Assembly (NCBI GenBank): GCA_028292405.1
Contig: JAQGMJ010000013.1
Span: forward strand, 32,237-96,236
DNA length: 64,000 nt
Direction: 5' to 3'
Source of the DNA: Betaproteobacteria bacterium
Lineage (GTDB): Bacteria; Pseudomonadota; Gammaproteobacteria; Burkholderiales; JAEUOS01
Each line of letters opens with the position of its first letter. Within the stretch, counting starts at the first letter, position 1. Shown piece after piece: positions 9,174 to 32,578 of this stretch. The position numbers and the translations under genes are program-made. The notes below the pieces were generated by a model. The model saw nothing but the letters and a program-made list of their open reading frames with translations. It was not told the DNA's origin and did no database searches.

Positions 9174-10883
9174 ATGTCCGTTACCCAACAAGCCGCCGAA
9201 ATGGCGACTGAAAGCTTTGCCGCCCTGTTTGAGGAATCCCTCAATCATCAGGAAATGCGCGCAGGCGAAGTCATCACTGCCGAAGTGGTGCGCGTCGACT
9301 ACAACTTCGTGGTCGTCAATGCTGGACTCAAGTCGGAAAGCTACATTCCGATCGAAGAATTCAAGGCCGACAACGGCGAACTCACCGTCAAGATCGGTGA
9401 TTTCGTCTCGGTCGCCATCGACTCGCTGGAAAACGGTTTCGGCGAAACGCTGCTGTCGCGCGACAAGGCCAAGCGCCTGTCCGCCTGGATGGACCTGGAA
9501 AAGGCCCTGGAATCGGGCGAACTGGTCTCCGGCGTGATCACCGGCAAGGTCAAGGGCGGCCTGACCGTCATGACCAACGGCATCCGCGCCTTCCTGCCCG
9601 GCTCGCTGGTCGACATCCGCCCGGTCAAGGACACGACTCCGTTTGAAGGCAAGACGATGGAGTTCAAGGTCATCAAGCTGGACAAGAAGCGCAACAACGT
9701 TGTCGTTTCGCGCCGCGCCGTGCTGGAAGCCAGCCAGGGCGAAGAGCGCGCCAAGCTGATGGAAACCCTGTCCGAAGGCGCGATCGTCAAGGGCATCGTC
9801 AAGAACATCACCGACTACGGCGCATTCGTCGACCTCGGCGGCATCGATGGCCTGCTGCACATCACCGACCTGGCCTGGCGCCGTGTCCGTCACCCGTCCG
9901 AAGTGCTGACGGTGGGCGATGAAATCACCGCCAAGATCCTGAAGTTCGATCAAGAGAAGAACCGCGTCTCCCTGGGCGTCAAGCAACTGGGCGAAGATCC
10001 GTGGGTGGGCATCAGCCGCCGTTACCCGCAGGGCACCCGCCTGTTCGGCAAGGTGACCAACCTCACCGACTACGGCGCATTTGTCGAAGTCGAAGCGGGC
10101 ATCGAAGGCCTGGTACACGTCTCCGAAATGGACTGGACCAACAAGAACGTACATCCTTCGAAGGTCGTGGCCCTCGGCGACGAAGTCGAAGTGATGATCC
10201 TGGAAATCGACGAAGACCGCCGCCGCATCTCGCTGGGCATGAAGCAGTGCATGCCCAACCCGTGGGAAGATTTCTCGATGAACCACAAGAAGGGCGACCG
10301 TGTGAAGGGCGCGATCAAGTCGATCACCGACTTCGGCGTGTTCATTGGCCTGCCTGGCGGCATCGACGGCCTGGTGCACCTGTCGGACCTGTCCTGGTCG
10401 CAAGCCGGCGAAGAAGCGGTCAAGAATTTCAAGAAGGGCGATGAAGTCGAAGCTACCGTGCTGGCGATCGACGTCGAGCGCGAACGCATTTCGCTCGGCA
10501 TCAAGCAGATGGATGGAGACCCCTGGTCCAACTTTGTCGCTACCAACGACAAGGGCGCGCTGGTGACCGGCAAGGTCAAGAGCGTGGACGCCAAGGGCGC
10601 CGTTGTGATGATCGGCGACGAAGTCGAAGCCTATCTGCGCGCTTCCGAAATCTCGCGCGACCGCGTGCAGGATGCTTCCACCCTGCTCAAGGAAGGTGAA
10701 GAGATCGAAGCCGTGATCATCAACGTCGACCGCAAGAACCGCAATATCAACCTGTCGATCAAGGCCAAGGACAACGTCGAAGAGCGTGAAGCGCTGACGC
10801 GCAACACGGCGGACGCGGGCAACGCCGCGACCGGCACCACCAACCTTGGTGCGCTGCTCAAGGCGAAGATGGATCAAAAATAA
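9174..10883 (+). CDS. rpsA: 30S ribosomal protein S1
   Basis: Multiple S1 repeats ([74 protein letters not shown]). Confidence 0.98.
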
Positions 10884-10913
10884 GTCCGACTTAAGCCTAC
10901 AAGCTCTGTACGC

Positions 10914-11264
10914 ATGACCAAATCGGATCTCATTGCGAGACTCGCGGCGCGCTATCCGCAGCTCGTCGCCAAGGACGCCGACTTCGCCGTCAAGACCATT
11001 CTTGACGCGATGGGCGAGTCTTTGGCGCGCGGGCAGCGCATCGAAATTCGCGGCTTCGGCAGCTTCGGCCTGAACTACCGGCCGCCGCGGGTGGGCCGTA
11101 ACCCGAAGTCGGGCGAGAAGGTGCACGTGCCGGAAAAGCATGTGCCGCACTTCAAGGCCGGCAAGGAGTTGCGCGACCGCGTCGATGCAAAGCTGAACGA
11201 GGAAGAGAATGCCAAGGCGGCTTCGACCACCCGTGGTCCGGTGGTTGCGGCGGCGGGCGGTTGA
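10914..11264 (+). CDS. ihfB: integration host factor subunit beta
   Basis: [17 protein letters not shown]...[54 protein letters not shown] family, follows rpsA. Confidence 0.96.
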
Positions 11265-11293
11265 GCGCAGGCGCGGAAAGCATAGGCAAGATG

Positions 11294-11323
11294 AAAAAGC
11301 GGCACGCAAGTGCCGCTTTTTTT
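11294..11323 (+). terminator. Rho-independent terminator after ihfB
   Basis: AAAAAGCGGCAC-GCAA-GTGCCGCTTTTTTT: 12-bp perfect stem, 4-nt loop, T-run. Confidence 0.9.
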
Positions 11324-11469
11324 ATGAAGGCGTGGCCGTCGGCGTGGATAGCCGGGCGCAACCCGCCGCTCGGCCCGCAGCAGGGACTTTGCGGCGATAA
11401 TGCGGGCTGGCGCGACAGCGGTCTGGGGCGTGCCGAAATTCGAGAAATCACTCCGGCCTGGAGGCGAGG

Positions 11470-11787
11470 ATGCGGTACATAGCCTGGATTCTGCGGGTGT
11501 TACTGTTTCTGGTGCTGTTTTTGTTTGCCCTGAAAAATTACGAGGTGGTACCGCTCAAGTTTTATTTCGACTTCGAGTGGCGCGCGCCCCTGGTGTTGCT
11601 GTTGCTGATTTTTTTCGCCGGCGGCATGGCGCTGGGCGTGCTGGCCTGCCTGCCGCGCCTGTTCCGCCAGCGGCGCGAGCTTTCCGCGGCCCTGGCGGCG
11701 GCGAAAAAGCGTCCCGTGGTGCCGGTGCTGCCGCAGGCGCCGGCCGACGCGGTGGCGCTGCCCGAAAGCGTCGCCTCGGGCATTTGA
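11470..11787 (+). CDS. lapA: lipopolysaccharide assembly protein LapA-like (DUF1049)
   Basis: Two hydrophobic segments (ILRVLLFLVLFLFALKNYE, APLVLLLLIFFAGGMALGVLACLPRL); directly upstream of lapB. Confidence 0.85.
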   Translation: MRYIAWILRVLLFLVLFLFALKNYEVVPLKFYFDFEWRAPLVLLLLIFFAGGMALGVLACLPRLFRQRRELSAALAAAKKRPVVPVLPQAPADAVALPESVASGI

Positions 11788-11815
11788 GCGGGATAGGAAC
11801 GGAGAACTGACGCGG

Positions 11816-12991
11816 ATGGAAATCGAACTCTGGTGGCTGCTGGCATTGCCGCTGTTTTTCGGCCTCGGCTGGGCCGCGGCGCGGGTCGACATCCGCCATC
11901 TGGTCAGCGAATCCAGGGCGCTGCCGCGCTCCTATTTCAAGGGCCTGAATTTCCTGCTCAACGAGCAGCCGGACAAGGCGATCGATGCCTTTATCGAGGT
12001 CGTCAGCGTCGACCCGGAAACCATCGAGCTGCATTTCGCGCTGGGCAACCTGTTTCGCCGCCGCGGCGAGATCGAGCGCGCCATCCGCATGCACACCAGC
12101 CTGGTTAGCCGTAGCGACCTGAACGAAGAGCAGCGCCTGCATGCCCTGTACGAATTGGGCCAGGACTACCTCAAGTCCGGCCTGCTGGACCGTGCCGAAG
12201 ACGCGCTGACCAAGCTGGCCGGCACCAGCTACGGGGGCCGCGCGGAAGTGTTTTTGCTGGAAATCTTCCAGCTGGAAAAGGACTGGGACAAGGCGGTGGC
12301 CGTGGCCACCCGGATCGAGGCCGAGACCGGCATTTCCAGGCAAAAGGAGATCGCCCAGTTTCATTGCGAACACGCGGTCAGCCTGATGGCGCAGTCCAAA
12401 CCGGAAGAAGCGCGCGCCCAGGCCGAGGCGGCGCTCAAGGCCAACCGTAAGGCGGTGCGCGCGCAAATGATCCTGGGCGACATCGCCGCCCAGGCTGGCC
12501 GCCATGAAGAGGCGATCGAAGCCTGGCAAAAGGTCGAGTCGCAAGACCCGATGTATCTTTCCCTGGTGGCGGCCAAGCTGATCGAGAGCTACACCAAGGT
12601 CGGGCGCCAGAAGGAGTGCCTGACCCTGCTGCGCGGCTACCTGGAGCGCTACCCGTCGCTGGACCTGCTCGACGTCGCCTTCCAGCTCTGCCTGGAGCTC
12701 GAAGGCATGGACGCCGCCTACAAGCTGGTACGCGATGAACTGAAACGCAGCCCGACTTTGCTCGGCCTGGACCGGCTGCTGGAGGCGCGGGTGATGATGG
12801 AGCCGCCTGAGCGCCAGGCCGACCTGCAACTGGTGAAAAACCTGATCCATCGCCACACCCACCGGGTGGCCCGCTATGCGTGCGAAAATTGCGGTTTCAA
12901 GGCGCGCCAGTTCTTTTGGCGCTGCCCGGGCTGCGGCGGCTGGGAAACCTATCCGCCGCGGCGCGCGGAGGAATTTGACCTGAGCCCGTGA
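11816..12991 (+). CDS. lapB: lipopolysaccharide assembly protein LapB (TPR protein with rubredoxin-like C-terminus)
   Basis: N-terminal TM, TPR repeats (YFKGLNFLLNEQPDKAIDAFIEVV), C-terminal CENCGFKARQFFWRCPGCGGWETYPP metal-binding motif. Confidence 0.92.
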   Translation: MEIELWWLLALPLFFGLGWAAARVDIRHLVSESRALPRSYFKGLNFLLNEQPDKAIDAFIEVVSVDPETIELHFALGNLFRRRGEIERAIRMHTSLVSRSDLNEEQRLHALYELGQDYLKSGLLDRAEDALTKLAGTSYGGRAEVFLLEIFQLEKDWDKAVAVATRIEAETGISRQKEIAQFHCEHAVSLMAQSKPEEARAQAEAALKANRKAVRAQMILGDIAAQAGRHEEAIEAWQKVESQDPMYLSLVAAKLIESYTKVGRQKECLTLLRGYLERYPSLDLLDVAFQLCLELEGMDAAYKLVRDELKRSPTLLGLDRLLEARVMMEPPERQADLQLVKNLIHRHTHRVARYACENCGFKARQFFWRCPGCGGWETYPPRRAEEFDLSP

Positions 12992-13106
12992 CGCTCGATG
13001 CGCCGTTCGGGCCAGGTGCGGCGGCAGGCGATTCGACGCTTTTTCATAATGACGTGTTGCTGCTGCGCTAGCGTCGCAAGCTTTTAACTTTCTGGATAAA
13101 TCAGTC

Positions 13107-14453
13107 GTGAAAATCACCATGATCGGCACCGGGTACGTGGGTCTAGTCACCGGGGCATGTTTTGCGGAAGTCGGCAACGAAGTGCTCTGCCTGGACCTGG
13201 ATGCGAACAAGATTCGCATCCTCAACGAGGGCGGCATCCCGATTTTCGAGCCGGGCTTAAAGGAAATGGTGGAGCGCAACCGCGCCGCGGGGCGCATCCG
13301 CTTCACCACCGACATCGAGCAGGCGGTGGCGCATGGCGACATCCAGTTCATCGCCGTCGGTACCCCGCCGGATGAGGATGGCTCGGCCGATCTGAAGTAC
13401 GTCACCGCGGCGGCACGCAACGTTGGCAAGTACATGACCGGGCACAAGGTGGTGGTCGACAAGTCCACAGTGCCGGTGGGCACGGCCGACAAGGTGCGCG
13501 CGGCGATTACCGAAGAGCTTTCCAAGCGCGGCGCGAAAATCGACTTCGCCGTGGTCTCCAACCCGGAGTTCCTGAAGGAAGGTGCGGCGGTGGACGACTT
13601 CATGAAGCCGGACCGCGTGGTGGTGGGCGTCGACAGCGACCGCGCGCGCGAAATGATGCGCGCCCTCTACGCGCCGTTCCAGCGCAACCACGAACGGATG
13701 ATTTTCATGGACATCCGCTCTGCTGAACTGACCAAGTACGCCGCCAACGCCATGCTGGCCACGCGCATCTCCTTCATGAACGAAATCGCCAACCTGGCCG
13801 AAAAGCTGGGGGCGGACGTCGAACTGGTGCGCCAGGGCATCGGCTCGGACCCGCGTATTGGTTACCACTTTCTCTATGCCGGTTGCGGCTACGGCGGCTC
13901 CTGCTTCCCGAAGGACGTGCAGGCGCTGCTGCAGACGGCGAACGAAACCGGATTGGGCTCGAAGATTCTCGATGCTGTGGAAGCCGCCAATGCCGCGCAA
14001 AAGAAAGTCGTCGGCGACAAGATCGTCAAGCATTTCGGCGCCGACCTGAAGGGCCGCCACTTCGCCGTCTGGGGGCTGGCCTTCAAGCCGAATACCGACG
14101 ACATGCGCGAAGCGCCCTCGCTGGAATTGATCCGCGAGCTGGCCGGGCGCGGCGCCACCATCACTGCCTACGACCCGGTCGCCATGCACGAGGCGGGACG
14201 CATGCTGCAGGATGTGCCCGGCGTCAAGTTCGCCGACAGCCCGATGGCCGCCCTCGACGGCGCCGACGCCCTGGCGATCGTCACCGAGTGGAAGGAATTC
14301 CGCAGCCCGGACTTTGCCGCCATCAAGGCCAAGCTCAAGCAGGCGACGATTTTCGACGGCCGCAATCTCTACGACCCGCGCATGGTGCGCGACCTCGGCT
14401 TCGCCTACTTCCCGATCGGCCGCCCGGACCTGCGCCAGAAGGCGACCGCATGA
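13107..14453 (+). CDS. ugd: UDP-glucose 6-dehydrogenase
   Basis: [68 protein letters not shown]. Confidence 0.95.
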
Positions 14454-15400
14454 GCCAGGCAGCCTCCTTGCAGACCTATCGCGAGGCGGCCGGCCGTGGC
14501 CGCGTGCTGGTGGTGGGCGACGTGATGCTCGACCGCTACTGGTTCGGCGATGTGCATCGCATCTCGCCGGAAGCGCCGGTGCCGATAGTCAAGGTCGAAA
14601 GAAGCGAGGAGCGCCTGGGCGGCGCCGCCAACGTGGCGCGCAATGCCGCCGCGCTGCGCGCCAATACCACGCTGCTTTCGGTGGTCGGTGACGACGAGCC
14701 TGGCGTGACCTTGAAGCGCATGCTGGAAGAGGCGAACATCCGCGCCGTGCTGCATGTGGACAAGCAGTTCAAGACCACCGTCAAGCTGCGCGTGATCGGA
14801 CGCCAGCAGCAACTGCTGCGCATCGACTTTGAGGAGTGGCCCAGCCACGAGGTGCTGCACGGCAAGCTCGCCGATTTCAAGGGCTACCTCGACGCCACCG
14901 ACGTGGTGATCCTCTCCGATTACGGCAAGGGCGGCCTGACGCATATCGCGGAGATGATCGCGGCGGCGCGTGCCGCCGGCAAGATTGTGCTGGTCGATCC
15001 CAAAGGGGAAGAATACGAGCGCTATGCAGGCGCGACCGTGCTCACGCCCAATCGCAGCGAACTCAAGCAGGTGATCGGCGCCTGGAAGTCGGAAGCGGAC
15101 CTGGCCGAGCGCACCGAGGCCCTGCGCAAGAAACTCAAGCTCGAAGCCCTGCTGCTGACCCGCTCCGAAGAAGGCATGACGCTGTTCACCGCCGCCGGCA
15201 CACTCAACATTCCGGCGCAGGCGCGCGAGGTCTACGACGTTTCCGGCGCCGGCGACACCGTGATCGCCACCCTGGGCGCGCTGCTGGGCGGCGGCATCCC
15301 GCTGGACGAGGCGGTTAAAATGGCCAATCGCGCCGGCGGAATCGTCGTCGGCAAACTGGGCACCGCGGTGGTGTCGCCGGACGAGCTGTTTACCGAATGA
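14450..15400 (+). CDS. rfaE1: D-glycero-beta-D-manno-heptose-7-phosphate kinase (single-domain HldE N-terminal / RfaE1 type)
   Basis: [66 protein letters not shown] PfkB signature. ATGA overlap with ugd. No cytidylyltransferase domain. Confidence 0.92.
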
Positions 15401-15418
15401 TTCACTGAAGCCCCAAGC

Positions 15419-16417
15419 ATGAGCTACTACATTGTCACTGGCGCGGCCGGCTTCATCGGCGCCAATCTGGTCAAGGGCCTGAACGACCGCGGCATCACCG
15501 ACATCATCGCGGTGGACAACCTGACGTGTGCGGACAAGTTTCCCAATCTCGTTGACTGCGAGATCGCCGATTACTTCGACAAGAACGAATTCCTCGATCT
15601 GCTCCAGGACGGACATTTCGACGGCGGCGTCGAGGCCCTGTTGCACCAGGGCGCCTGCTCCGACACCATGGAAACCGACGGCCGCTACATGATGGAGAAC
15701 AACTACCGTTACTCCATCGCCATGCTGGATTTCTGCCAGGAAGAGGAAGTACCACTGATCTACGCTTCCTCCGCTGCGGTCTATGGCGCTTCGCCCACGT
15801 TCAAGGAAGAGCGCGGCTTCGAGAAGCCGCTCAACGTCTACGGCTATTCCAAATTCCTGTTCGACCAGGTGGTGCGCCGGCGCATGGATGACGCCAGTGC
15901 GCAGATCGCCGGCTTTCGCTACTTCAACGTCTACGGCTCGCGCGAAGCCCACAAGGGACGCATGGCCTCGGTGGCCTTTCACAACTTCAACCAGTTTCGC
16001 GCCGAGGGCAAAGTAAAACTGTTCGAAGGCTATGGCGGCTACGCCGCCGGGCAGCAGTCGCGCGACTTCGTTTCGGTCGAGGACGTGGTGGCCGTGAACC
16101 TTTATTTCCTGGAAAACCCCGACCGCTCCGGCATTTTCAACCTTGGCACCGGCCGTGCCCAGCCCTTCAACGACGTCGCGCGCGCAGTGGTCAATGCCTG
16201 CCGCCAGGCCGAAGGCAAGGGTGCCTTGAGCCTGGAAGAGTGCATCGCGCAGGGCCTGCTCGAATACATTCCATTCCCCGAGGCGCTCAAGGGAAAATAC
16301 CAGAGCTATACCCAGGCTGACGTCGGCTTGTTGCGCGAGGCTGGTTACGACGTGCCTTTCCTGACGGTCGAGCAGGGCGTCGGGCGTTACGTGCAGAGCC
16401 TGCTGCGGTCGGCTTGA
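15419..16417 (+). CDS. hldD: ADP-L-glycero-D-manno-heptose 6-epimerase
   Basis: [71 protein letters not shown]. Confidence 0.96.
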
Positions 16418-16533
16418 CCGCTCCAGTCAACGCAGCGGGTGTTATGGCGTTATAGCAAGTACCGCCGTGCGGTAGTCGTCGCGTGTCGGATCAAACCAGG
16501 CAAGTTGCCGCGTAAACTCAAAGGGGAAGAGAA

Positions 16534-16959
16534 ATGCATAAACTGATACTCGCCTTCATCGGCTTTTTCATGGCCATGGGCATGGCCTTCGCCGCCGTCG
16601 ACCTGAACACCGCCGACCAGGCGGCGCTGGATGGCCTCAAGGGCATCGGCCCGGTCAAGGCCAAGGCGATTGCCGACGAGCGCGCGAAAAACGGCCCCTT
16701 CAAGAATCTCGACGACGTGCAGGCGCGCGTCAAGGGTATCGGCCCGGCCACCGTTGCCGGCTGGAAAAAAGATGGTTCGGCTGTTGTTGGTGGCGGCGGT
16801 GCTGCTGCGCCCAAGTCTGATGCAAAGGCGGATGCGAAGGCGGATAAAAAGAGCGATAAAAAGGTCGACAAAAAAGCGGACAAAAAAGCCGCCAAGGCTG
16901 ATGCAAAAGCAGATAGCAAGGCCGACGCAAAAACCGACGCCAAGAGCGAAAAGAAATAA
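16534..16959 (+). CDS. ComEA-like helix-hairpin-helix DNA-binding protein with Lys/Ala/Asp-rich C-terminal tail
   Basis: Signal-like N-terminus, VDLNTADQAALDGLKGIGPVKAKAIADERAKNGPF HhH motif, then low-complexity KSDAKADAKADKKSDKKVDKK... tail. Confidence 0.88.
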   Translation: MHKLILAFIGFFMAMGMAFAAVDLNTADQAALDGLKGIGPVKAKAIADERAKNGPFKNLDDVQARVKGIGPATVAGWKKDGSAVVGGGGAAAPKSDAKADAKADKKSDKKVDKKADKKAAKADAKADSKADAKTDAKSEKK

Positions 16960-16978
16960 TTCCGTCGCCGGCTTCCTG

Positions 16979-17010
16979 AACCCCCGCCGCTGGTGGGGGT
17001 TTTGTTTTTT
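16979..17010 (+). terminator. Rho-independent terminator after the HhH gene
   Basis: AACCCCC-GCCGCTGGT-GGGGGTT followed by TTGTTTTTT. Confidence 0.8.
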
Positions 17011-17056
17011 GGCCCGCGGGTACAATCTGTTCGATCGTAACGCGCCACTCACTCCC

Positions 17057-17959
17057 ATGTACCCTACTGTCGAAGCCGCCATCGGCAACACGCCCCTGGT
17101 GCGCCTGCAGCGCCTGCCGGGCGCCGCTAACGCGAAGCGCAACAACGTCATCCTCGGCAAGCTCGAGGGCAACAACCCCGCTGGTTCGGTGAAAGACCGG
17201 CCGGCGCTGTCGATGATCGCGCATGCCGAGGCGCGCGGCGAGATCAAGCCGGGCGACACCCTGATCGAGGCGACTTCCGGCAACACGGGTATCGCCCTGG
17301 CGATGGTGGCGGCGATGCGTGGCTACAAAATGATCCTGATCATGCCGGACAACCTGTCGCTGGAACGGCGCCAGAGCATGACGGCCTACGGCGCGCAGCT
17401 TATCCTTACCCCGGCGAAGGAGGGCGGCATGGAATACGCCCGCGACCTCGCCGAGAAAATGCAGCGCGAGGGCAAGGGGCGCATCCTCGACCAGTTCGCC
17501 AACCCGGACAATCCGCGCGCGCATTACGAAGGCACCGGGCCGGAAATCTGGCGCGATACCAAGGGCGGCATCACCCATTTCGTCTCGGCGATGGGCACCA
17601 CCGGCACCATCATGGGCGTGTCGCAATACCTGAAGGAACAAAGCGAAACTGTGCAGATCGTCGGCTGCCAGCCCAGCGAAGGCTCGCAGATTCCCGGCAT
17701 CCGCAAATGGCCGGAAGCCTATTTGCCGAAGATCTACGACAAGGCGCGGGTCGACCGCATCGACTATGTGAGCCAGGCCGACGCCGAAGAGATGTGCCGC
17801 AAGCTCGCCGCCGTCGAGGGTATCTGCTGCGGCATCTCGGCGGCGGGCGCCTGCCAGGTAGCGCTGCGCCTGGCCGAAGAAGTGGAGAACGCGACCATCG
17901 TGTTCATCGTCTGCGACCGCGGCGACCGCTATTTGTCGACCGGGATTTTCCCGGCCTGA
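17057..17959 (+). CDS. cysM: cysteine synthase B
   Basis: MYPTVEAAIGNTPLVRLQRLPG; LEGNNPAGSVKDRPALSMI; EATSGNTGIALAMVAA; VSAMGTTGTIMGVSQYLKE. Start at ATG 17057. Confidence 0.94.
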   Translation: MYPTVEAAIGNTPLVRLQRLPGAANAKRNNVILGKLEGNNPAGSVKDRPALSMIAHAEARGEIKPGDTLIEATSGNTGIALAMVAAMRGYKMILIMPDNLSLERRQSMTAYGAQLILTPAKEGGMEYARDLAEKMQREGKGRILDQFANPDNPRAHYEGTGPEIWRDTKGGITHFVSAMGTTGTIMGVSQYLKEQSETVQIVGCQPSEGSQIPGIRKWPEAYLPKIYDKARVDRIDYVSQADAEEMCRKLAAVEGICCGISAAGACQVALRLAEEVENATIVFIVCDRGDRYLSTGIFPA

Positions 17960-17983
17960 GCACGGGCGCCGGCAGCGGCTAGC

Positions 17984-19048
17984 TCAAATCCCGCGGGCCT
18001 GCTTGATCGCCCGCGCCAGTTCCATCACGCTCATCGCGTAAAAGCTGGAGCGGTTGTAGCGCGTGATGACGTAAAAATTCTGCAGGCCGACCCAGTACTC
18101 GGTCGGCGCATCCGGTGTCACCAGATCGACCAGGGCGCCCAAGGTGTCTTCGGGTAGATTCTGGCGAATCAGCGACTCCGAAGTGACGCCGAATTTGGGC
18201 AGTTCGGCCACCTTGACCGAAGGCAGGATGTCGCGGTCAAGCAACTCACGCCAGGCGCTGCCATCGACACGCGCCGGAAACGCGATCGGTGCGCCGGCCA
18301 CCCAGCCATGACCCTTGAGGAAGTTGGCGACGCTGCCGATGGCGTCCTCAAAACTGTTGCGCAGGTCGATCTTGCCGTCGCCATCGAAATCAACAGCCCA
18401 CTTGCGCCAGGAGGAAGGCATGAACTGCGGGATGCCGATGGCCCCCGCATAGGAACCCTTGAGGGTGAAAATGTCGATGTTTTCGTCGCGGGCGAACAGC
18501 AGGTAGTTCTCCAGCTCGTCGCGGAAAAAGTCGCCGCGCCGCGGGTAGTCGAAGGCCAGCGTGGTGAGCGCATCGATCACCCGAAAGCCGCCGGTGTTGC
18601 GTCCGTACACGGTTTCCACGCCGATGATGGCGATGATGATCTCGGCCGGCACGCCGTATTCCTTTTCCGCTCGCGCCAGCGCGCGGCCATGGCTGCGCCA
18701 CAGCGCCGCCCCGCCTTCGATGCGCACGGAATCGAGAAAGCGCGAGCGGTAGGCCTGCCAGGAGCGCACGCGCGGATTGGTCGGCGGCGCCATCAGGTCG
18801 ACGATGCCGGGGTAAAAGCGGGCGCGCGCAAAGAGGAACTTCAGCTCGGTTTCGACAAAGCCGTGCTTTTGCGCCATGTCGGCGATGAAGGCCTGCACCT
18901 CGGGGCGGGTCTGGTATTGCACCACGCTGCCGCCGGCGGGTTCCGCGGCGGGCTTGACGGTCTTTTTGCGCGCTTCGGCCCAGCCGGGCGCCGCTGCCAG
19001 GGTGAGCGCCAGCAAGAGCAGGGCTGCGCGCAGCGGGGCGAGTTTCAA
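17984..19048 (-). CDS. mltB: lytic murein transglycosylase B
   Basis: Signal peptide, AEKEYGVPAEIIIAIIGVETVYGRNTGGFRVIDALTTLAFDYPRR, GSYAGAIGIPQFMPSSWRKWAVDFDGDGKIDL. No obvious lipobox. Confidence 0.93.
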   Translation of the reverse strand: MKLAPLRAALLLLALTLAAAPGWAEARKKTVKPAAEPAGGSVVQYQTRPEVQAFIADMAQKHGFVETELKFLFARARFYPGIVDLMAPPTNPRVRSWQAYRSRFLDSVRIEGGAALWRSHGRALARAEKEYGVPAEIIIAIIGVETVYGRNTGGFRVIDALTTLAFDYPRRGDFFRDELENYLLFARDENIDIFTLKGSYAGAIGIPQFMPSSWRKWAVDFDGDGKIDLRNSFEDAIGSVANFLKGHGWVAGAPIAFPARVDGSAWRELLDRDILPSVKVAELPKFGVTSESLIRQNLPEDTLGALVDLVTPDAPTEYWVGLQNFYVITRYNRSSFYAMSVMELARAIKQARGI

Positions 19049-29110: not shown

Positions 29111-29127
29111 GGCCGGACGGAACGCTT

Positions 29128-29562
29128 TCAGCCCAGCGCGTGCTCGCGGATGCGCTCCAGCATGTCGATCAGCTGACGGCGTTCTTCCACGCTGAGCGCC
29201 TGCTCGAGAAATTTCTGCCGCCGGCGCGAAAGCTCCTCCGAGCGCTCCAGCAGGGCACGCCCCTTCGCGGTCAGGCGGATGGTTTTGTTGCGGCCGCTGG
29301 CCGGGTCCGGTGATACCCGGATCCAGCGGCTGGCCTGCATGCCCTGGGCCATGCGCGTCACTGCACCCTTGTCCTGGTTGTTGGCGCGCGCCAGTTCGGA
29401 GAGGCTCCAGTCGTCGCGGCGCGCCAGCAGGGCCAGCAGGGTGAGCTGCTCCGGCGTGATGTCGATTTCAGCGGCGGCATAGGTCTGCAGAAAGTGGCGC
29501 CGCAGCACGATGCCGGTGATGCGGATCTGGTAGCCAAAGGCATCCTGCAGAAGGTAGTCCAT
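29128..29562 (-). CDS. MarR-family transcriptional regulator
   Basis: ITPEQLTLLALLARRDDWSLSELARANNQDKGAVTRMAQGMQASRWIRVSPDPASGRNKTIRLTAKGRALLE winged-helix. Confidence 0.92.
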   Translation of the reverse strand: MDYLLQDAFGYQIRITGIVLRRHFLQTYAAAEIDITPEQLTLLALLARRDDWSLSELARANNQDKGAVTRMAQGMQASRWIRVSPDPASGRNKTIRLTAKGRALLERSEELSRRRQKFLEQALSVEERRQLIDMLERIREHALG

Positions 29563-29620
29563 GATTTTGCTTTTCTTGCCGCGGCGCCTGGTGCGCAGGC
29601 AGGGTGGCTTGGGCGCGATG

Positions 29621-30604
29621 CTAGGCGGTCATGCTCGCGCGTATTTTCGCCATCAAATGATCGTGCGCGATTATAGGAGCATATTTGGCGGGGTTGGCCG
29701 GTCCCTGGCAGCTTGGCAGGCATTCGATGCGCGCATCCGCGTTCGGCCCGGTGAACAGCACGATGGACAGTCGGCGCGTCGAGCCGGTGAGGCTTTTCGG
29801 CGGGTTGATCACGCGGTGCACATTGGATTTCCAGCGGTCGTTGGTCCAGCGCGCCAGCAGGTCGCCGGCATTGACTACCAGGGCGCCGCGCACTGGCGGC
29901 ACGTCGACCCATGACCCATCCGGCGACAGCACCTGCAGGCCGCCTGGTGCGTTGTCCTGCCGCAGCAGGGTGAAACCGGTGTAGTCGGTATGCGCGCCGT
30001 AGCGCAGCTGGCCCGGCAGGGGATCTTGCGCCTGGTCCGGGTAGTGCACCAGGCGCAGCGAGCTGGCCATGCGGTCGTAGTAGCTGTCGAAGAATCCATC
30101 GGGCAATTCCAGCGCCGGTGCGGAAAGGCGCATCAGGGTCTGCCCCAGTGCATAGACGCGGTCGAAATATTCGTTCAGGCGCTTGCGGAATTGCGGCGGC
30201 GTGTCCGGCCACCGGTTGGCGCGAAACAGCGCCTGGTCCACCGCGTTGTGCGGTGGGCGTCTTTCCCATTCCACGCCGGTGAAGGTCAGCGCCTCGCAGA
30301 TGTCCGGCGGCGCCGCCTCATCGTTCAGGGTGCGCGCCACCGCCTCGATGCCCAGCGGCACGTAACCCTGGCCGGTTTTTTCCGGGCGAAAGCTGCTGCG
30401 CATTTTTTCTTCCAGCGGGCGGTCGAAAAAATCCAGCGCCAGACTGTGGATCTCATCCAGCAGGTCTTCGGGAATGCCGTGCCCCACCAGCGTGGCGAAG
30501 CCGATGGTCTCGAAGGCATGGGCCCATTGCCGTGCCAGCGTGGCGCGTGCCTGCTCGTCACCGCCGTGGAAGGCGGCAATGTCGATTACCGGTACCTGCA
30601 TCAC
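29621..30604 (-). CDS. 2-oxoglutarate/Fe(II)-dependent oxygenase, isopenicillin N synthase family
   Basis: N-terminal VPVIDIAAFHGG; HTDYTGFTLLRQDNAPGGLQVL (HxD), NVHRVINPP (distal His), RLSIVLF (RxS). Confidence 0.93.
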   Translation of the reverse strand: MMQVPVIDIAAFHGGDEQARATLARQWAHAFETIGFATLVGHGIPEDLLDEIHSLALDFFDRPLEEKMRSSFRPEKTGQGYVPLGIEAVARTLNDEAAPPDICEALTFTGVEWERRPPHNAVDQALFRANRWPDTPPQFRKRLNEYFDRVYALGQTLMRLSAPALELPDGFFDSYYDRMASSLRLVHYPDQAQDPLPGQLRYGAHTDYTGFTLLRQDNAPGGLQVLSPDGSWVDVPPVRGALVVNAGDLLARWTNDRWKSNVHRVINPPKSLTGSTRRLSIVLFTGPNADARIECLPSCQGPANPAKYAPIIAHDHLMAKIRASMTA

Positions 30605-30623
30605 TTATTTCCCTTGGACTCGC

Positions 30624-31694
30624 CTACTTGCCCGGCATCTGGCCGTTCACGCCTTCGACCAGCCAGTTGATGCTGCCCAGTTCGTCGTCGCTCATGTTAC
30701 GCCCTGCGGGAACTTTGACCGTGCCGTCCTGTGCCTTCACCGGACCGGCAAAGACATTGAAGCTGCCGGCGGCGAGATCAGCCTTCAGCTTGGCCACCTT
30801 TGCGGTGACGGCCGCGGGCACGGCGGAATTGATGCCGACCACGTCGACCATGCCAAGCTCGAAACCGCCGAACACCGGCGCCTGCAGGGGCTTGCCGTCG
30901 AGGGTGGCCTGGATCACCTTCTCGTAGTAAGGGCCCCACACCGGCACGGTGGAAGCGAGGATCGCCTTGGGCGCCAGCTTGCTGCGGTCCGAATCGATGC
31001 CGAAGGCGTACAGGCCCTTGTCTTCCGCGGCCTTGATCACGGCCGAAGACGAGGTGTTTTGCATCAGCACGTCGGCGCCCTGGCCGATCAGCACCTCGGC
31101 GGCCTGCTTTTCCTTGCTGACGTCGAACCAGGTGTTGACCCAGATCACCTGGGTGGTGATCTTCGGGTTGACGCTCCTGGCGCCGGCCTCGAAGGCGTTG
31201 ATGTTGCGCACGATTTCGGGAATCGGGAACGGCGCGACATAGCCCAGCTTGCCGCTCTTGCTCATGTGCCCGGCGATCACGCCGGAGAGGTAGACCGCCT
31301 GGTACATGCGCGTGTTGTACACAGAAAGGTTGGGGGCGGTTTTGTAGCCGGAGCAATGGTAGAAGGTGACCTTGGGCATATTGCCCGCGACTTTCACGGT
31401 GCTGTCCATGAAGCCGAAAGAGGTGGTGAAAATCAGCTTGTTGCCGGTGCTGACGAATTCACGCAGGGCGCGCTCGGCGTCGGCGCCCGCCTCGATATTG
31501 TCGACGTTGGTGACCTTGATCTTGTCGCCGAATTTCTTTTCCACGTACTGGCGGCCGAGATCGTGGGCGTAGGTCCAGCCGCCGCTGGAAATCGCGGTGT
31601 TGTGCAGGAAGGCGACTTTCAGCGGCTCTGCCGCGATCGCGCCGGTGCAGCCCAGGGCCGCCAATACCGCCGCCAGTTTCTTGAGGATTTGCAT
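30624..31694 (-). CDS. BMP (PnrA/Med-type) family substrate-binding protein
   Basis: Signal peptide MQILKKLAAVLAALGCTGAIAAEPLKVAFLHN; KLIFTTSFGFMDSTVKVA; HCSGYKTAPNLSVYNTRMYQAVYLSGVIAGHMSKSGKLGYVAPFPIPEIVRNINAF. Start at ATG 31694. Confidence 0.9.
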   Translation of the reverse strand: MQILKKLAAVLAALGCTGAIAAEPLKVAFLHNTAISSGGWTYAHDLGRQYVEKKFGDKIKVTNVDNIEAGADAERALREFVSTGNKLIFTTSFGFMDSTVKVAGNMPKVTFYHCSGYKTAPNLSVYNTRMYQAVYLSGVIAGHMSKSGKLGYVAPFPIPEIVRNINAFEAGARSVNPKITTQVIWVNTWFDVSKEKQAAEVLIGQGADVLMQNTSSSAVIKAAEDKGLYAFGIDSDRSKLAPKAILASTVPVWGPYYEKVIQATLDGKPLQAPVFGGFELGMVDVVGINSAVPAAVTAKVAKLKADLAAGSFNVFAGPVKAQDGTVKVPAGRNMSDDELGSINWLVEGVNGQMPGK

Positions 31695-31822
31695 GGTCCG
31701 CCTTTCGTTAGTCGTGAGCAGGTGCGCGGCGCCGAAGGCTTCTTCAGCCGCCGCGGGATGAGTGCACATCTGCAAGGCACGTGCCAGGGAAAGCGCCGAG
31801 CCATCCGGCTCCGGATGAAACT

Positions 31823-31856
31823 GTTGATGTATCAACTAAATGGTTGATGCATCAAC
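31823..31856. promoter_or_regulatory. tandem palindromic operator upstream of the BMP-2OG-MarR operon
   Basis: GTTGATGTATCAAC (31823-31836) and perfect palindrome GTTGATGCATCAAC (31843-31856), centres 20 bp apart; TTGAT-N2-ATCAA resembles MarR-type operators. Confidence 0.75.
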
Positions 31857-31925
31857 AGGTTTTCTGTGCAGAACGTTGGCACGGCCTGCGGGCGGCTGGA
31901 AACCGGCCAGCCGGGGCAGCAAATG

Positions 31926-31949
31926 AAAAACGGCCCGCGAACGGGCCAT
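31926..31949 (-). terminator. Rho-independent terminator downstream of the AhpD-like gene
   Basis: Minus strand reads GGCCCG-TTCG-CGGGCC-GTTTTTCATTT. Confidence 0.7.
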
Positions 31950-31990
31950 TTGCATGCATCCGGCCTGACGCCGGCACCAAAAACGGGCGG

Positions 31991-32578
31991 CTACTTTTTC
32001 TCTTTCGGCACCCGGCCCATCAGGTAAAACTCGTCGTTTGGGCGCATGCCGATCATGTTGGCCATGCGGTTGGAAAGACCAAAAAACGCCGCGATCGCAC
32101 CGATATCCCAGACGTCCTCATCGGAGAAGCCGTGGCCACGCAGGGTGGCGAAATCCTCGTCGCCGATGCGGTAGGACTCCTCGGTGACCTTCACCGCGAA
32201 ATCGCACATCGCCCGCTGGCGCGGCGTGATGTCCGCCTTCAGGTGATTGGTCGCCACCTGGTCGGCCACCAGCGGCTTCTTTTCGTAGATGCGCAGGATG
32301 GCGCCGTGCGCCACCACGCAGTAGATGCAGTGGTTGCGCCCCGATACCGCCACCACGATCATCTCGCGGTCGCCCTTGGTGAGACCGCTGTTTTCCTTCA
32401 GCATCAGCGCATCGTGATAAGCGAAAAACGCGCGCCACTCGGCCGGCCGGTGCGCCAGCGTAAGAAATACATTGGGCACGAAGCCGGCCTTTTCCTGGGT
32501 CTCGAGAATGCGCGCGCGGATGTCTTCCGGGAGATCCTTCAGTTCAGGCACCGGGTAACGGCTGATCGGGTGGCTCAT
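31991..32578 (-). CDS. peroxidase-related / AhpD-like (carboxymuconolactone decarboxylase fold) protein
   Basis: GLTKGDREMIVVAVSGRNHCIYCVVAHGAILR with CxxC-xxxH motif. Confidence 0.88.
   Translation of the reverse strand: MSHPISRYPVPELKDLPEDIRARILETQEKAGFVPNVFLTLAHRPAEWRAFFAYHDALMLKENSGLTKGDREMIVVAVSGRNHCIYCVVAHGAILRIYEKKPLVADQVATNHLKADITPRQRAMCDFAVKVTEESYRIGDEDFATLRGHGFSDEDVWDIGAIAAFFGLSNRMANMIGMRPNDEFYLMGRVPKEKK

Follow-up and report, generated by a model that had tools for sequence, protein, structure and literature searches.

Tandem palindromes in front of a binding protein, 2OG oxygenase and MarR operon as probable operators of the operon's own regulator

The locus lies within a 64-kb window, by which we mean the whole stretch of DNA analysed (64,000 nucleotides), and consists of three genes carried by the minus strand. 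The first encodes a periplasmic binding protein of the BMP family which resembles AtzT, the second a 2OG-Fe(II) oxygenase and the last a MarR-family regulator (Table 1). They are closely spaced, about 22 bp separating the BMP and 2OG genes and about 58 bp the 2OG and MarR genes. Read along the minus strand, a peroxidase-related (CMD) gene comes first, followed by a terminator-like hairpin and two palindromes; a leader of about 125 nt separates these from BMP, 2OG and MarR. The hairpin would separate the peroxidase-related gene from the operon. Between lptG and the CMD gene, MarR is the only regulator gene that was recognised, and the operon includes neither a permease nor an ATPase gene.

Table 1. 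Coordinates of the features discussed, numbered from the first letter of the window
Feature	Coordinates	Strand	Sequence or remark
Peroxidase-related (CMD) gene, upstream of the operon	31991-32578	-	
Rho-independent terminator-like hairpin, behind the peroxidase-related gene	31928-31951	-	
Palindrome 2, operator-like, perfect	31843-31856		GTTGATGCATCAAC
Palindrome 1, operator-like	31823-31836		GTTGATGTATCAAC
Direct repeat, 19 nt, period 20	31818-31836 and 31838-31856		AAACTGTTGATGTATCAAC / AAATGGTTGATGCATCAAC, 84%
Inverted repeat, 19 nt, imperfect	31818-31836 / 31843-31861		89%
Candidate promoter (putative)	31826-31855	-	TTGATG (31855-31850), 18-nt spacer, TACATC (31831-31826)
BMP-family periplasmic binding protein, AtzT-like, first operon gene	30624-31694	-	
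2OG-Fe(II) oxygenase, second operon gene	29621-30601	-	
MarR-family regulator, third and last operon gene	29128-29562	-	144 aa
Block of regulator, oxygenase, binding protein and operators	29111-31990		about 2.9 kb

Both palindromes are found exactly where the first-pass annotation had placed them. Palindrome 2 is perfect as announced, all 14 bp being symmetric, and palindrome 1 is made of two perfect 6-nt arms around the 2-nt centre GT. Their centres, at 31829.5 and 31849.5, are indeed 20 bp apart. This spacing amounts to about 1.9 helical turns, some 34 degrees below two full turns, so that the proposed location of both sites on the same DNA face is approximately right. The symmetry which the flanks were said to extend across the pair is present as an imperfect inverted repeat; together with a direct repeat of period 20, it spans positions 31818 to 31861 and takes in both palindromes. 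They agree with MarR sites in their 5-2-5 geometry and their TTG..CAA ends; the form TTGAT-N-ATCAA given earlier for such sites has to be corrected to TTGAT-N2-ATCAA.

Another inverted repeat, CATCCGG-CT-CCGGATG, can be read directly in the sequence at 31802-31817. Its centre (31809.5) is exactly 20 bp from that of palindrome 1, hence a series 31809.5, 31829.5, 31849.5, and its half-sites are unrelated to those of the palindromes. It is located near the predicted mRNA 5′ end, belongs also to direct-repeat family D2, and is possibly a hairpin of the mRNA 5′ region, or else a coincidence.

The exact sequence GTTGATNNATCAAC occurs twice in the window, both occurrences being the palindrome pair. 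The window holds 46 palindromes of the 6-2-6 type, among which palindromes 1 and 2 are the sole identical pair separated by no more than 60 bp, and such a pair never arose in 60 simulated first-order Markov windows: the pair is far beyond chance. Throughout the 5.53-Mb genome the 12-bp core TTGATNNATCAA is present only at these two palindromes. The genome scan which had been proposed for defining a regulon thus leads, with the exact motif, to this single operon. Allowing one mismatch to GTTGATNNATCAAC adds only two genome sites, C4:131878 and C38:11416, the latter probably inside a coding region, and neither displays a link to purine or oxygenase genes. With two mismatches the 14-mer is found at 58 genome sites against 31 for the reversed control pattern, and these sites therefore mean little. 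A search for the tandem motif among 369 genomes of the class retrieved this genome only.

The regulator carries two Pfam domains, PF12802 (40.8 bits for a cut-off of 27) and PF01047 (35.1 for 24.6), and its winged-helix core was modelled with a pLDDT of about 90. Its recognition helix reads DKGAVTRM, compared with DLGALTRM in E. coli MarR. Characterised proteins are only distantly related to it. The best NCBIfam model is that of the Saro_0803 family (1.8e-17), but membership was rejected, the score of 63.3 bits being below the curated cut-off of 200. The sequence contains no cysteine, and a redox-sensing MarR of the OhrR/MexR type, which relies on a reactive cysteine, was likewise rejected. 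Searches at E values of 1e-13 to 1e-15 or below gave no ortholog, either in the order, sampled with 300 and with 399 genomes, or in the phylum, sampled with 399; since these samples overlap and cover a small part of known species, this is not proof of absence. No close ortholog was found among the five genomes of the family, the contig collection yielded only distant matches and the plasmids none.

In two family genomes (G052 C197 and G137 C35) lptG and the peroxidase-related gene, which flank the operon here, are adjacent, about 30 bp apart; in a third (G097) 5.6 kb of other sequence occupies this junction, and in a fourth the two genes are on separate contigs. Given the adjacency in the first two, MarR, oxygenase, BMP and operators look like one block of about 2.9 kb, gained or lost together. 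The GC content of the block (61-67%) is similar to that of its flanks and so does not support a recent acquisition from an AT-rich source. With its regulator, genes and operators, the block resembles a self-contained regulated cassette. In the same genome five other BMP genes score above the cut-off; none of these loci has such a MarR gene nearby, and none has the motif.

That the palindromes are operators of the MarR protein encoded by the operon, as the first-pass annotation proposed, is well supported by their position, their uniqueness in the genome, the 5-2-5 geometry and the likeness of the recognition helix to that of E. coli MarR. The joint absence of MarR and motif at the five other BMP loci argues further for it. 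We consider it very likely that the two palindromes are tandem operators through which MarR represses its own operon until a ligand releases it. Each palindrome would take one MarR dimer, and the two dimers, about two helical turns apart, would sit over the -35/-10 region and bar RNA polymerase from the promoter. BMP, oxygenase and MarR would be repressed together, amounting to negative autoregulation. Binding of the inducer, either a small aromatic heterocycle imported via the AtzT-like protein or its hydroxylated product, would then make MarR release the DNA. Such regulation is probably of a known, textbook kind, an ordinary self-regulating switch. Taken as a whole, the earlier interpretation, autoregulation by MarR with dimers that may bind cooperatively, is partly supported.

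The candidate promoter, whose -35 would be within palindrome 2 and -10 within palindrome 1, is the best of the intergenic region and a weak match. As its score is within the window background and a stricter scan found no promoter, its position can be proposed only tentatively. The leader was also considered as a riboswitch and rejected: no Rfam family matched it above the gathering score, and it folds no better than shuffled sequences (z -0.75).

Other proteins, or no protein at all, could account for the repeat. The FNR box is TTGAT-N4-ATCAA, and the letters of the half-sites are the same here, so that a different, trans-encoded regulator of the FNR/CRP type might bind the pair. Yet the spacer is 2 nt at both palindromes instead of 4, on which ground an FNR box was rejected, and TTGATNNNNATCAA is present at five other places of the genome and absent from this locus. 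A global regulator should also have many sites and is unlikely with TTGATNNATCAA restricted to one operon; in the stretch from lptG to the CMD gene, for its part, no second regulator gene could be recognised. We regard a trans-acting regulator as quite improbable. Still less credit can be given to a transcription terminator or attenuator hairpin in place of a protein-binding site. The segment 31821-31858 can form 17 pairs with a 4-nt loop, followed on the plus strand by GTTTTCTG, and was flagged as terminator-like. However, no gene of the plus strand leads into the repeat, the minus strand continues with TTTC only, and G-C pairs make up 6 of the 17. The peroxidase-related gene already has a better hairpin at 31951-31928, Rfam yields no match at the gathering score in the repeat, and a hairpin needs no two separate palindromes.

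Within a MarR-based scheme, the protein could activate rather than repress, as some MarR proteins do, or one palindrome could be functional and the other the effectless product of a 20-bp tandem duplication. A duplication is suggested by the direct repeat of period 20, in which even the preceding AAA is included. On the other hand, the two copies diverge at other bases of the repeat yet each keeps all 12 palindromic positions, and both palindromes overlap the best promoter candidate. This variant appears unlikely to us, and we retain repression by MarR from both sites as the preferred reading.

The genes under this proposed control, a nucleobase-type binding protein and a 2OG oxygenase, are more interesting than their regulation. 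The operon BMP shares about 50% identity with AtzT (PDB 6pi5, pADP-1), whose KD is near 110 nM for guanine and near 2 uM for 2-hydroxyatrazine (PMC6834077). Out of the nine guanine-site residues named in that study, six are identical in the operon BMP (Ser97, Phe98, Glu165, Asn169, Trp194 and Asn218) and three are changed (Tyr45 to Trp, Thr139 to Val, Asn220 to Ser). For the oxygenase, the closest solved structure is thymine-7-hydroxylase (PDB 5c3p, 3e-51). The operon enzyme has kept the Fe ligands, most of the 2OG ligands and the base-sandwiching Phe292 and Tyr217. In the hydroxylase, Asn87 and Asn294 make direct or water-mediated contacts with the pyrimidine (PMC4787775); both are Gly in the operon enzyme, and Tyr324 and Arg328 are changed too. 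With these two of the four pyrimidine-recognising residues replaced, its assignment as a thymine-7-hydroxylase was rejected; its substrate is probably not thymine.

The likeness to AtzT and thymine-7-hydroxylase makes a nucleobase-like aromatic heterocycle our best guess, by analogy, for both substrate and inducer; the operon would take up such a compound and probably oxidise it. AtzT differs in this comparison by the absence of permease and ATPase genes from the operon of the window, and the BMP may therefore share a transporter encoded elsewhere, such as that of contig C87. There, a BMP 59% identical to the operon BMP is found in a cluster with an ABC permease and an 8-oxoguanine deaminase above its curated cut-off. 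A relative of the 2OG oxygenase is also present in two of the five other BMP clusters of the genome, that of C87 and that of C65, which further encodes an ABC ATPase and a Rieske oxygenase. A BMP gene adjoins a 2OG oxygenase gene in Tistrella pTM3 and in an Acinetobacter junii plasmid (pA) as well, there too without this MarR. BMP genes recur in the neighbourhood of 2OG oxygenases belonging to one family, in settings that include genes for a purine deaminase, a Rieske oxygenase or ABC transporters. In the A. junii plasmid, the region 9843-18840 contains several 2OG-oxygenase-like stretches among many IS elements, and the BMP gene is annotated there as two pieces.

The recurring BMP-2OG pair is possibly an undescribed gene pair for nucleobase oxidation. 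A more specific proposal, that the cassette represents a bacterial route not yet described, by which an AtzT-type BMP takes up a purine-like compound, a 2OG oxygenase hydroxylates it and a dedicated MarR senses it, is speculative and, in our opinion, rather doubtful. Our literature search found no description of a BMP-2OG-MarR operon. A putative repressor-operator pair as clean as this one, with one motif present twice and nowhere else in the genome, could reveal the ligand of an uncharacterised MarR. This ligand could in turn identify the substrate of the recurring pair of BMP and 2OG oxygenase, which seems linked to purine-like compounds.

The proposed arrangement echoes those of several known MarR systems, although the literature search brought up no paper that reports this exact motif for a MarR protein. 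In E. coli, the half-site recognised by a MarR subunit is TTGCC, arranged as inverted repeats, and marO comprises two dimer sites (PMC6158253). Inverted-repeat pentanucleotide sites, two dimer sites per operator and autorepression (PMC6158253) are what is proposed here as well, and the pattern D-GA-TRM of the recognition helix is common to both proteins. The half-site is nevertheless TTGCC against TTGAT here, overall identity between the two MarR proteins is low and the operon is a different one. Two adjacent sites have been described as common for MarR proteins, and MexR sites are paired GTTGA half-sites overlapping the promoter, with GTTGACCTTATCAAC as native PII (PMC9892617). The PI and PII sites of mexR-mexAB-oprM in Pseudomonas aeruginosa are, like the present ones, two sites that each consist of a pair of inverted GTTGA half-sites; they overlap promoters of the regulator's own region (PMC9892617), as is tentatively proposed for the palindromes. 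Their half-sites are separated by 5 bp, whereas the gap is 4 bp here (GTTGA-TGTA-TCAAC). MexR moreover is redox-sensitive through its cysteines (PMC11211675), which the operon MarR lacks, and its target is an efflux pump instead of a binding-protein/oxygenase operon. SCO3205, for its part, recognises TTnAAnnnTCAA (PMC3737563). Saro_0803 of Novosphingobium aromaticivorans, whose family model was the best match of the operon MarR, represses the catabolic gene nov1 from a site over the -10 box and is released by an aromatic substrate (PMC10046596). Its site is single, GCAATA-N6-TATTGC, in contrast to the two palindromes described here. Finally, BpsR is a MarR protein that senses 6-hydroxynicotinate, a hydroxylated N-heterocycle (PMC6837509).
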